Positions 1 to 31,066 of a stretch of DNA of 64,000 nt are shown here, piece after piece. The stretch covers positions 442,451-506,450 of the forward strand of contig BCIG01000025.1 of assembly GCA_001599915.1 (NCBI GenBank), read 5' to 3'. A model generated the notes under the pieces. That model worked only from the letters and a program-made list of their open reading frames with translations, did not search any database and was not told the origin of the DNA. The translations under genes were made by a program, and so were the position numbers. The DNA is from Symbiotaphrina buchneri. Taxonomy: Eukaryota > Ascomycota > Symbiotaphrinales > Symbiotaphrinaceae. Positions within the stretch are counted from its first letter, which is position 1; each line of letters opens with the position of its first letter.

Positions 1-1250
1 ACACCTGCTTCTACATTCACACCGTTCCAAGCTGTATTCCTTCTGCTATTATACCTTTTCACATTTATAAAAGAATACTTTTATAATTTATAAATAACTA
101 AGGTAAGAAATTTGTTAAAATAGTTTAAACAAGGTTTTATTTACCTTTTGTTAAAGCTTCTATTCTATTAGTTTTTAACATTAGAAATTTTTTATTTATA
201 GAATTAATTGATTTAAAAAACTATATAAGGATATATCTTCTTAGTTGTTAAATAACAAGTGTTAGGATTATTCTTGTAAAAATACTGATATAGGTTAGGA
301 TCAGGCTTGTTATTGGTATGGTATAGTATGGTATTTAAACCCTTTAAACTTACCTGTTAAGAAACTTAATTACATGTGGTAGTTTAGACCCTTAGTACCA
401 GATATCACTAGTTATAAATATGAATACTACCATTAAGTATTCATTGTATATTATTTACACTGTTTACTAAGTATTAAGTAAGTAACTTTAAGTAAAACCA
501 AATTTTATCTTGGTAAATAATCAACATTTTAATATAATAAAAACATGGTTATATAACAAATTCTTTGCTAAATAATACCCCTTTTAGAATTTTGAAATCT
601 GATTAGGAATAGTTGAGATATTATCATTTTCTAACTCTTACATTTTATGATAGCCAGTAACTGTAGGATAACAGCAAGTTAGAAGTATAAAAAGGACTGA
701 GAACAACAACTTGGTTAAAATTCAAGAAAATACAAAATACAATCATATTCTAACTAACCTACCTTTTTGAACCTAGATTACCTTGTATTTATAAACATTA
801 ACAATTAGTAAAAAACACATTAATACAAACTAATACATACTAATACACACTAATACACACTAATACAAGCTACCTTGTATATTAAACCTAATTAGGTATA
901 GCTTATTACTATAAATATGATCATGCAACTTACCAAGCTCTAGTTCTATACCTCTTCTAAAAATGGTAGTTTTAAAAGAAAGAATTTTCTTATCTTATCT
1001 TTTTGATCTAATAATCTGGTATTATACCACATTTAACACTGGTAGAATATGGTATCATGACTAAGTACCACTGGTGCCAAAATTTGATACCAGACCACAT
1101 TTAGTACCAGTGTGGTATATTTGTATTTGGTAGTATATACCATACCAACGGCAAGCCTGGGTAGGATTTGATAAATAAGATATCTTAACAAACTATCTTA
1201 CAAAGTATCTTACCTATTGTTAACTTACCTTCGTAATGGCTAAATCAGAG
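1..1250. other. AT-rich gene-free block
   Basis: This stretch is strongly AT-rich, with long A/T runs and repeated TATGGTAT-like words, and has no open frame of useful length. The change to balanced composition near position 1270 is abrupt. Blocks like this in Pezizomycotina are usually old repeats mutated by RIP, near telomeres or centromeres. That origin is inferred; no transposon domain is readable here. Confidence 0.7.
821..870. repeat. Decamer tandem array
   Basis: Five head-to-tail copies of a 10-bp unit of the form TAATACAMAC lie inside the AT-rich block; the third and fourth copies are identical and the others differ at one to two positions. It looks like a simple minisatellite with no sign of function. 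Confidence 0.85.
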
Positions 1251-2375
1251 GCAATCATTGGTTCAAACCCCTGCTAAGCGGTCGCTCTTTATGCGGTGCT
1301 ATCATCCTTTTCTTGCTGGATGCGAGTAACTGATCGCGCCTCCTGCAACCGATCGCACCTCCTGCAAGCCCCTACCAGCTGCTATTTATATAGCTTCAAA
1401 GCAGCCTCCGGCCATTGGCCAATGGCGGGATTAGTGGAAGGCGTAGAGCCATTGGCCAATGGCGAGAATTGGTGGGTCGTCTGCAACAGCTCGCACCTCA
1501 ACGTGACGTTGGAGTCTAGTAACCCATTGCACCCTGGGTGAAGCTAATACGAGCTCGCACGTCGACTGGTCACCGTTGAGACCTTCTCCGACTCGATCGA
1601 TACCCCTCCCTATCGAATCTACGATATCGGACTCCTACCAGGCTGTCTACTGGCCACTAGACGGCTTGGACTGACCAACATCCTCAAGACAGCTTCCACC
1701 CGACCGTACAACAGCCACTGCCAGCTACTAAGGCTGTGCTCGAAACTGCTGGCTGCGGATACCAGTCGGTCTCCCTTTAGAAGCACATCAGCGGAGTCAT
1801 ATACGATATCTTCTATGCAGGATTTGAAGGCCTTATGAGAATTGTTACAACGTTCAGGGTCAGGATCATGGTTAGATGTGCTAGGGACGGGGAGGATAAG
1901 GCGGAATATTTCTACCTTTCTCAATATCTCTCGTTGTCGCCAGGGCTTTGTATATAATGACATCGACCGCAACATCTTCGTGGAGGAGCGAGGAGTGAGA
2001 AAGCGTTTATGGCCCACTTTCGAATCTTATAGAGGCATATCAAAGGGTTTCTTTGTTGGTTGGATGGCGTGGTAGCCCAATGGCCACGCCTGGCGGATCT
2101 CATACCCGGGCTTAAAGAAGCCCCCATGTCTCCTCCCTTAAAATATTAAAAAAACAATGGAGCGCCGTGAGGCGGACCTTGCCCATACACCATTGAATAA
2201 CAACTGTCGCCGTCAATGGCCAACAGCACCAATTCATTTACCAATGGTGGATATTAGGAGTGGACTGCGACGTGGGGTAGTGCGGTGCACCATGCATGGA
2301 TGTTCCGCATTATGATTATCTGTAATAGAGAAAAAGTAAAGCCCGAAACTGGTCCAAAAATTGAAATTGAAGACG
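1251..2375. other. Unassigned stretch with duplicated palindromes
   Basis: Composition is near balanced here, unlike the block before it. It holds two copies of a 16-bp palindrome (1411-1426 and 1448-1463) and a duplicated 17-bp word around 1332-1368. Overlapping open frames of 68-132 codons exist on both strands between 1619 and 2127, but none resembles a known protein and no splice pattern joins them. It could be the remnant of a mobile element or the fringe of the AT-rich block; neither can be shown. Confidence 0.4.
1411..1463. repeat. Two copies of a 16-bp perfect palindrome
   Basis: The palindrome GCCATTGGCCAATGGC occurs at 1411-1426 and again at 1448-1463, 37 bp apart. Each copy contains ATTGG and CCAAT, so both read as paired CCAAT-box-like sites. 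A CCAAT-binding complex site and a relic of a repeat are both possible. Confidence 0.7.
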
Positions 2376-2384
2376 AAAAAAAAA
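2376..2384 (-). terminator. Pol III terminator (T9)
   Basis: On the minus strand a run of nine T begins three bases past the discriminator base of the tRNA-Phe gene. A T run of this length is a strong RNA polymerase III stop. It supports the view that the interrupted tRNA gene is a complete transcription unit. Confidence 0.85.
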
Positions 2385-2408
2385 TGTTGGGGTCATCGTG
2401 GATCGAAC

Positions 2409-2463
2409 CTAACCGTTGAATGAGCCGAGGTCATATGACCTAAGGTAGTGATTTGTGACTTAC
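2409..2463 (-). other. Spliceosomal-like insert in tRNA T arm
   Basis: This 55-nt insert splits the T stem of tRNA-Phe between its fourth and fifth bases. It has a consensus fungal donor GTAAGT, an acceptor TTAG and a possible branch site CTCAT 12 nt before the end. It also holds a perfect 14-bp palindrome, AGGTCATATGACCT (2428-2441), able to fold as a hairpin. Removing it exactly restores a fully paired T arm. One flanking base is ambiguous, but only the GT-AG choice gives consensus ends. Confidence 0.7.
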
Positions 2464-2517
2464 ACGAGACCTTCAGATTACAGTACAGTTGAACTGTGGG
2501 CTGAAGTGGACTTCAGT

Positions 2518-2567
2518 CTAGTGGGTATTAGTGGTGCGAACGCAATGCAGGAAATTGAATGAATTAC
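2518..2567 (-). other. Spliceosomal-like insert in tRNA anticodon stem
   Basis: This 50-nt insert falls between the fourth and fifth bases of the anticodon stem. It begins GTAATT after CAG and ends CACTAG. A branch-like ACTAATA places the branch A 10 nt before the 3' end. Length, ends and branch position match spliceosomal introns of the protein genes in this window. Its removal restores a perfect five-pair stem. Confidence 0.7.
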
Positions 2568-2597
2568 CTGACGCTCTCCCAACTGAGCTATGACCCC

Positions 2598-28893: not shown

Positions 28894-30647
28894 CTAGCCC
28901 GCTGGCTTTTTCTTGCTTTCCCTTCTCCGCTCCCAGACCTGGAGGTAGCTTTCCTTTGTGAAGAGAGTCTCTGTTCTGGCCGGCTCAACGAATAGATTCT
29001 CCACTTCGAACCATTCGCTTCTCGCTCGATCAACCAGTTGTACCTTCCACACCTTCTTCTCCGCCTCGCCTTCCGTAGAATCATCACGGACTCTTTGAGC
29101 CTCATGGATGACGTTCGCGACAAGGTCGTACCAGATGGGTTCCCCTCCTGGATGCACGGAAGGATTCGGCTCCACATACGGAGACATGTCCAGCGAGCGC
29201 GTGGGGAATGTAACGATCGTCGGATTGCGCTCAGAAACAAATTTGTTCTGGGAGAAGCGCTTGATATGTAGTAGGAGATAAGGCGGTAGCGGATGTAGTA
29301 GTCGGTATCTCTTGCGGGTATTCAGGTGCTCCTGTGCCCTTCTTCCGTCATACTTGGAAAGTATGCTAGTCAACGGCACTTGTGGAATGATGTTTTTGTC
29401 CAGTTCATCCTGGAATAATGGCGCCGGGGGAAGATCCAAAGTCAGCAAAATGAATCGGCTTATATCAACCTTGACCTCGGCGGCCTCCTCGAATCGCAGA
29501 CGATCGCCTGCGTCTGCTCTCGCTGTGATTTGTTGGCTCTCGACTTTCAGCCTACCTTGGAAGACCTTCTGGATGATGCTGCTGCCCGGCTTTGTCTTGC
29601 TCCCTCCCAGCGCAAGGTGCAGACTATTCAAGAACCAACTGAGGAACTCCACGGGATCGGACTGGTTCGTGAGGGAGAACTTTTTATTCGAACGCAAGGA
29701 TACTTCCTGCAGAAGCTCGTGGGGTGAGACGTGCGATTTGAAGGCCCGGGGGTTCCATATCTTGCGCACGAGAATAGAGAAACGCTGCGCTAGTTGAGGG
29801 CGACCTGATAGATCCTCGAGCATGAAATAATTCCGCAGGGGCGGAACGTGCGCCAAGGCCTGGATAATTACATTGAAGTAGTCGTTTGCTTTGATATCGT
29901 TCATCCCAACGAACCCTGGCTGAATCAGCCGCTGTGAAATGACAGAAATTCGTGATTCTAGACATGGGACGTACCTGGAATGTATTTCTTGCCGTTCAGA
30001 TCCCAGGCTGTTCGTGGTTCACGGTCAAGCTTCGCCACTTCTTCCTTGGGCAATTTAGGATCGACTACAAACTTGATGTCCTCCAAGCTCTTGTTCTTGA
30101 CTTCATACCCTTCTGGAAGCACATAGGCTTTTTTGGTTTCCATATTGATGTAGACATGGTGGTCCACTTCGAGGGCATGGAAATAAGCTTGTGACTTCGG
30201 GCCCCTTCCCTGGAAGTATTTGCCGCAGACTAGACAGGCGTAGACGTTTATATTGGACAAGGTCACTGAGCATAGCTTCTCGAAGTCAAAATCGAGCACC
30301 GCGCGATTTATGGTGTCCAGATAGAGATCCGTATAACCTTCTGCCGGTTCGGATTGGCGGACTGGTGCAGCGGCTACCGGCTGGTCTTCGTCCTGGTCCA
30401 CGGCCGTTTCGGCAGCTGCCTCCTCAAGCTCTTCTTCTATCTCATCGGCAGCTGCCAGGATGTCGTTCCCATTCCGTGCGTCATGCTCGAATGTGTGGTA
30501 GCTGTCAAGAGCACTGCTGGGAGTGCCGCCGCCATTTGCTGTTGCGACCTTCTCCACAGCGTCTTCTTCACGGGCCTTCTTCGAGGCAGGCGAATCTGAA
30601 AGTGCCGTCTGCTCTAGGCTCTCCTCAGCCGGCCTTTTTGCCATCAT
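28894..30647 (-). CDS. SAD1: Tri-snRNP factor Sad1 (USP39-like, inactive)
   Basis: Exons 30647-29975 and 29915-28894 encode 564 residues. Sad1/USP39 helps hold the U4/U6.U5 tri-snRNP together in the nucleus. An acidic N-terminus is followed by a ZnF-UBP domain (CLVCGKYFQG at 138-147, then HALEVDHHVY) and a ubiquitin-peptidase fold. At the place of the catalytic Cys the sequence reads MNDIKANDYFNV, so Asp stands where active enzymes have Cys; the family is known to be catalytically dead. The 59-nt intron splits a Gly codon and gives the conserved junction KKYIPGFVGMNDIKAND. The Met pair at 30647/30644 (MMAKRPAEE) is chosen; an upstream Met at 30737 would add 30 residues lacking conservation features. 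Confidence 0.95.
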
Positions 30648-31066
30648 GGCAAGGTTTTTGACTTGTGTGGTTGGAGTGGAGGGCAGCAGGAAGATTTCAA
30701 AGCAAGTGTGAAGCTCTGTTTGGATCGTCAGGTCCATCGCTTCTGCGCTACGATACCGGTACCTTTACCCACACCGCACGCAAAAGTCCCGATCTGAGCC
30801 AAGCCATGAATATAGCAACCTCGGACAGCTCTTGAGCTCCAGGCCCGCAAGCTACGACGAACACAGAACCGTGCGCGCATTTCAGCAGAATCCTTCGAGT
30901 CGGTCCAGGAAGAGGTGATGGCGCAGTTTTGCATCTCTAAAGTAGGTACATACATCATGCAGGGAGGGTATCATGCTAAGTTTGAAAAGCCATATCCCAA
31001 ATCCATGGCGTGGGCATGCTATGCCTGACCCGAGCTCAACGCTGGCCATGAACGTCCTTTGTTATG
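30648..31066. other. Intergenic upstream of SAD1
   Basis: A 419-bp stretch holding the SAD1 promoter and the 3' region of the membrane-protein gene. No further feature was seen. Confidence 0.6.

Follow-up and report, generated by a model that had tools for sequence, protein, structure and literature searches.

Putative spliceosomal introns in the only detected tRNA-Phe(GAA) gene and in further tRNA genes of Symbiotaphrina buchneri

Ascomycetes, lichen-forming species among them, have been described as carrying small spliceosomal introns in their nuclear rRNA genes (Bhattacharya et al. 2000, as cited in PMC8527467), and according to the same text a 57-bp intron of lichen origin is spliced out of a Pol I transcript by yeast. 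mRNA-type introns are also present in U6 snRNA and U3 snoRNA genes (Tani and Ohshima 1989, 1991, cited in PMC10484740; PMC5832005), the intron of fission yeast U6 lying in a Pol III transcript (PMC10484740). According to PMC5832005, frequent interruption by an intron is so far known from only two small structured RNAs, U3 and U6. Multiple introns within one tRNA, up to three, are reported from archaea, nucleomorphs and Cyanidioschyzon, with archaeal insertion sites that include positions 30/31 and 53/54 (PMC4090602, PMC3978253, both in excerpt). Introns of archaea and Cyanidioschyzon rely on a BHB or a BHB-like motif, and the inserts of the Guillardia nucleomorph are 3–24 nt long, many of them without a defined BHB (same excerpts).

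Among the titles, abstracts and text passages of the open-access papers searched, none reported tRNA genes with spliceosomal introns, and the exact phrase 'spliceosomal introns in tRNA' had no match there. None were described in the accessible portions of PMC8527467, PMC10484740, PMC11782384, PMC4090602, PMC6461891, PMC3978253, PMC5832005, PMC8450103, PMC8393795 and PMC11889510; in the portion of the tRNA-intron review PMC4090602 the string 'spliceosom' is absent. As far as found, spliceosomal introns are known in non-coding RNA genes and have not been reported in tRNA.

The tRNA-Phe(GAA) gene of Symbiotaphrina buchneri shares features with each of these systems. Like the rRNA genes, it would combine small spliceosomal introns with an ascomycete gene for a structured non-coding RNA; it differs in that the host is a tRNA of the Pol III type, about 73 nt long, which also carries a canonical tRNA intron. 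With fission yeast U6 it would share an mRNA-type intron in a Pol III transcript, whereas here the RNA class is tRNA, two such introns would occur in one gene, and several isotypes are concerned. The insert sites 30/31 and 53/54 and the presence of multiple introns are reminiscent of archaeal tRNAs. In contrast to the archaeal, nucleomorph and Cyanidioschyzon introns, the inserts have GT-AG ends and branch sites, are 50–69 nt long, and show BHB-like pairing at chance level. The sequence data make a strong case for putative spliceosomal tRNA introns.

The window, i.e. the whole 64,000-nt stretch of DNA that was analysed, corresponds to C25:442451-506450 of the 23,383,419-base assembly G000 in 82 contigs. 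A sequence-only reading had proposed that a 73-nt tRNA-Phe(GAA) with perfect stems is encoded on the minus strand at positions 2388-2597, and this was confirmed by a brute-force structure search and by ARAGORN run on the spliced form. In this search the canonical 32-nt intron was taken out first, two more introns were left free in place and length without assuming GT-AG, and all placements giving a mature length of 71–74 nt were scored for cloverleaf formation. One top mature sequence was obtained (73 nt; score 71; pairs 7/4/5/5), in which all stems are paired; the tRNA-Cys of this genome, which is uninterrupted, has the same score. ARAGORN identified the spliced form as tRNA-Phe(gaa) and called no tRNA in the unspliced gene; when the spliced RNA was folded by minimum energy, no textbook cloverleaf resulted, so that the cloverleaf rests on the pairing score and ARAGORN. 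Across the whole window, neither ARAGORN nor Rfam at gathering score found a tRNA, and a model built from the genome's own spliced tRNAs, Phe included, gave the unspliced gene only 14.5 bits. The gene is adjoined by an AT-rich stretch (36% GC at window positions 1-2000, as compared with 48.5–56% in the other 2-kb steps).

Four exons and three inserts were delimited in the gene by sequence and structure search. Exon 1 (nt 1–30; 2568..2597), which was fixed by the free structure search and by ARAGORN on the spliced form, contains the uninterrupted A box TAGCTCAGTTGGG (2578..2590). It is followed at 30/31 by the non-canonical insert A (50 nt; 2518..2567), defined by structure search and splice signals, which begins with GTAATT, ends with CACTAG and has a branch-site-like ACTAAT (2527..2532) 7 nt before the AG. 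The structure search further located exon 2 (nt 31–37, ACTGAAG, anticodon GAA; 2511..2517) and exon 3 (nt 38–52; 2464..2478), which are separated by the canonical tRNA intron at 37/38 (32 nt; 2479..2510). Non-canonical insert B (55 nt; 2409..2463; GTAAGT..GGTTAG) is placed at 52/53 or, equivalently, at 53/54, and exon 4 (nt 53–73; 2388..2408) was positioned by a 3' exon site search together with the structure search. Since the first G of the B box GGTTCGATCC (2400..2409) is the last base of insert B, this box is intact in the DNA. A T9 run resembling a Pol III terminator lies at 2376..2384; all of these features are on the minus strand. For inserts A and B there are three equivalent placements each, one of which is GT..AG, and no GT-AG placement exists for the canonical intron. 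The details proposed from the letters alone were recovered, namely GT-AG ends on the 50-nt and 55-nt inserts, a normal tRNA type for the 32-nt insert alone, a fungal branch site in one insert, and intact A and B boxes with a T9 terminator.

Other tRNA genes of the genome were inspected for inserts of the same kind, and for genes left unexplained by one canonical intron two-intron parses were made in which one intron stayed at 37/38 while the second was free, without any splice rule. Four more genes with one GT-AG-type insert each were found in this way: (i) Ile(AAT) copy 2 (L026), with 69 nt at 53/54 and two possible placements; (ii) Trp(CCA) (L027), with 57 nt at 51/52 and three placements; (iii) Arg(TCT) (L039), with 57 nt at 52/53 and five placements; (iv) Arg(CCG) (L025), with 53 nt at 19/20 and 14 placements over mature lengths of 72–74. 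In every case one placement is GT-AG. The inserts cluster at the 5' edge of the B box (4/6 at 51–54). When the spliced forms of the five genes were submitted to ARAGORN, they were called Phe, Ile, Trp, Arg and Arg, and the unspliced forms were missed or miscalled. A sister gene of Ile(AAT), L006, has no T-arm insert. The insertion seen in the Phe gene is no single oddity, and at least these four additional genes are best read as carrying one putative spliceosomal intron each.

The list of tRNA genes used here is incomplete and derives from loci L001–L058. The Rfam tRNA model gave at least 30 places in the genome at E≤10 and at least 27 at E≤0.001, with 62 of 613 candidates scored; further genes were added by a script scan of loci. 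A B-box pattern matched 91 genome sites as compared with 90 in the reversed control, and of the 91, 30 were read and some lie in loci of this list. A BLAST-like search with fungal tRNA queries yielded one match only, and a 24-base pattern for initiator tRNA-Met had no match in the assembly. Several loci were set apart. L046, probably Thr(TGT), has a possible 58-nt GT-AG insert at 32/33 that structure does not fix: there are 15 equally good parses, several of them GT-AG, and the one compatible with a seventh insert was chosen with GT-AG in mind. L018, a 162-nt tRNA-like locus (C12:528725-528886, minus strand) whose middle part poorly fits one canonical intron, had no GT-AG insert in its best two-intron parses. 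L044, L037 and L038 did not qualify as ordinary tRNAs; the last is a 47-nt tRNA-like element (C20:294745-294791, minus strand; 23.3 bits, below cut-off) in which, by eye, acceptor and T arm pair and the D arm and anticodon arm are absent.

The canonical introns of the same genome served as internal control. Such an intron is present at 37/38 in most tRNA genes resolved (24 counted, leaving out L018, L037, L044, L046 and L038), and none was seen in six loci (L001, L002, L003, L004, L007, L014). It is absent from Cys, both Arg(ACG) loci, Thr(AGT) and two mitochondrial-looking Met(CAT) loci. A GT-AG placement was available for 6/6 structure-determined non-canonical inserts, from five genes, as opposed to 0/24 canonical introns under sequence-equivalent sliding (Fisher p 1.7e-6). 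The former count leaves out L046 and becomes 7/7 if that locus is added. From placements and dinucleotide frequencies, the chance of 6/6 was estimated at ~1e-11. Under a looser rule, allowing any placement of equal structural score, 1/24 canonical introns was GT-AG; this 12-nt intron of tRNA-Asn is too short for the spliceosome.

The inserts were then compared with the consensus sequences of 5' splice sites and branch sites. Their 5' splice sites read GTAATT, GTAAGT, GTAGGT, GTGAGT, GTTAGT and GTAAGC. A CTRAY branch site was found in 5/6 inserts and RCTRAY in 4/6, the hexamers being ACTAAT in Phe insert A, Trp and Arg(CCG), ACTGAC in Arg(TCT), and TCTGAC, 15 nt from the AG, in Ile; in Phe insert B no clean CTRAY site was present, only GCTCAT. 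The summed 5' splice-site and branch-site score of the six inserts was 54, as compared with a mean of 33.8 and a maximum of 46 in 20,000 shuffles in which the interiors were permuted and GT and AG kept. Spliced alignment of four protein genes of the window, with only GT-AG fixed, placed seven introns, a yeast PRE1 sequence being used for one of the four alignments. These introns span 44–89 nt (n=7), the 44-nt SAD1 intron having a weak donor and being possibly misplaced, compared with 50–69 nt (n=6) for the inserts, and 5/7 have a CTRAY site in the same range. The inserts accordingly share with U2-type spliceosomal introns the GT..AG ends, the splice and branch consensus and the length of local protein introns. 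There was no sign of introner-like copies, as each of the six inserts matched itself alone in the genome; given this absence of near-identical copies elsewhere, introner-type dispersal was rejected. A common origin of the inserts was likewise rejected, the best pair score among seven inserts being reached by 96/200 shuffles.

It is unlikely that the tRNA splicing endonuclease instead cuts out the inserts as non-canonical tRNA introns, in the manner of Crenarchaeota, nucleomorphs or the red alga Cyanidioschyzon. Such a route would be in line with 30/31 and 53/54 being known archaeal non-canonical sites and with the two introns of tRNA-Phe(GAA) in the Guillardia theta nucleomorph (both in the accessible text of PMC4090602), and many nucleomorph introns are excised although they have no defined BHB (PMC3978253, excerpt). 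However, BHB-like pairing of the inserts was at chance level, whereas canonical introns were above shuffles. In strict geometry, the mean core helix was 1.43 pairs for seven non-canonical inserts (L046 included) as compared with 1.44 in shuffles, and the 24 canonical introns averaged 2.17 pairs against 1.44 (sd 0.19) in shuffles. A core helix of at least three pairs occurred in 0/7 inserts, and the full 4-pair core in 0/7 inserts and 1/24 canonical introns. With a relaxed score maximised over sliding placements the six inserts reached 5.67 versus 4.19 (sd 0.54) in plain shuffles, a comparison that is biased because plain shuffling destroys sliding. When end bases were kept or sliding was disallowed, 347, 812 and 706 of 2000 shuffles were as good as the six inserts, whereas the 24 canonical introns were equalled by 0, 0 and 5 of 2000. 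The inserts have no BHB beyond chance. BHB is weak evidence, with a full 4-pair core in 1/24 canonical introns, and, as many nucleomorph introns are without a defined BHB, its absence only lowers the likelihood of the endonuclease route. That route also leaves GT-AG ends and branch sites unexplained, and the nucleomorph inserts of 3–24 nt (PMC4090602, excerpt) are at odds with the 50–69 nt observed here.

Signals for transcription were scanned with the A-box and B-box consensus. The A box is uninterrupted in 5/5 insert-bearing genes. In the DNA of Phe, Arg(TCT), Trp and Arg(CCG) the B box GGTTCRANYC is intact, and that of Ile, AGTTCGAGCC, is one base off consensus. As the first G of the box is the intron's last base in Phe and Arg(TCT) alike, intron and exon together rebuild the box in these two genes. 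A run of at least five T was present within 40 nt downstream of 5/5 genes; within the five genes, a run of at least four T was found in Trp only, where the T5 in the insert might stop Pol III. Cloverleaf, A box, B box and T-run terminator, as known from functional Pol III tRNA genes, are hence all in place. These signals speak against removal of the inserts by an unknown route or transcription of the locus by Pol II as a spliced non-coding RNA, which is hardly probable at all, even if the splice signals of the inserts are those of Pol II transcripts. Among other Pol III genes, no intron was seen in 16 of 17 listed 5S rRNA matches, those over the cut-off (full length, 120 nt), or in the one U6 match that passed the cut-off with 85.8 bits (99 nt, full length), so that U6 of S. 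buchneri is uninterrupted, unlike that of fission yeast. Copies of the 5S rRNA gene are scattered among the contigs, and two pairs lie close together (C2:1015572 and 1016113; C27:142604 and 143214).

The copy number of the interrupted genes was assessed with exon probes. The Phe 5' start GGGGTCATAGCTCAGTTGG had eight assembly sites at ≤3 mismatches (one exact; five in the reversed control) and the Phe 3' exon one site, and a scan around all eight 5' sites and the 3' exon gave a tRNA gene at the window's own locus only. For Trp, one 5' exon site and one 3' exon site were found in the assembly. Hence no second copy of Phe or Trp, and no ordinary tRNA-Phe(GAA) gene elsewhere, was detected by these probes at ≤3 mismatches. 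If the assembly is complete, decoding of Phe and Trp rests on interrupted genes. The search yielded no gene for several isotypes that would be expected (Glu, Pro, nuclear Met and others), and therefore the tRNA search or the assembly is incomplete. With the assembly in 82 contigs, these isotypes missing and 62/613 candidates scored in the Rfam search, a copy with more than three mismatches in the probed exons would escape, which leaves some room for the locus being a pseudogene or broken allele, with the real tRNA-Phe coming from elsewhere or its gene missing in the assembly. This is very unlikely, as inserts with splice signals occur in five genes, the stems, boxes and terminator of the Phe gene are perfect, and no second Phe or Trp copy was detected. 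The sound stems and the lack of a detectable redundant intact copy, the latter limited by assembly completeness, are not the marks of a tRNA pseudogene, and the decay that could have undermined the initial proposal was not observed.

At a probability of roughly 0.84, the two GT-AG inserts are spliceosomal introns that would be removed by the spliceosome, within a working tRNA-Phe(GAA) gene that is the sole one detected. The route suggested here for transcription, splicing and their order is inferred from the observed anatomy, intron signals, recurrence and detected copy number. Pol III would transcribe the whole Phe gene from the internal A and B boxes to the T-run. U1 and U2 snRNPs would recognise the GT-AG introns on this transcript, and the spliceosome would remove them in the nucleus, thereby rebuilding the anticodon stem and the T arm. 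Because end processing and export depend on the T arm being complete, the spliceosome is expected to act first, followed by ordinary end processing, export and the tRNA endonuclease; the canonical 37/38 intron would be removed by the tRNA splicing endonuclease and ligase. The principle has precedent in the U6 intron of fission yeast and the removal of an intron from a Pol I transcript in yeast. Dual processing by tRNA endonuclease and spliceosome, as envisaged in the sequence-only reading, is thus supported by the recurrence in four genes, the lack of a detected ordinary Phe gene and the absence of decay, and production of a single tRNA probably requires two different splicing machines.

Proteins encoded in the window point to Pezizomycotina. 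For eIF2 gamma, the two matches with the best E-values were a transcript entry (77% identity, 63% coverage) and Verticillium longisporum (84%), and a 98% match and Thelocarpon impressellum (95%) came next; nearly all named matches listed are ascomycetes. The SAD1-like protein was nearest to Candelaria pacifica, and the nearest named species for the RRP9-like protein, after two other entries, were Glutinoglossum americanum and Pycnora praestabilis. Several of these nearest-match species are lichen-related. The window also contains, at 28897-30764 on the minus strand, a gene for a U4/U6.U5 tri-snRNP-associated (SAD1/USP39-like) spliceosome protein.

It is likely that this fungus depends on the spliceosome for essential tRNAs, given that its only detected Phe and Trp genes, and others, are interrupted; two unrelated splicing machines would act on one Pol III transcript whose internal promoter stays readable. 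If true, spliceosomal introns would extend to tRNA, a major RNA class for which no such report was found, and could settle in essential Pol III genes with internal promoters unbroken. The genes would provide natural substrates for asking whether the spliceosome needs Pol II, for resolving the spatial order of spliceosome and tRNA endonuclease, and, with an insert in one Ile paralogue and none in the other, for studying intron gain. Several of the interrupted genes are missed or miscalled by ARAGORN and the Rfam tRNA model in the form used here, so that the tRNA sets of similar genomes may be under-counted.
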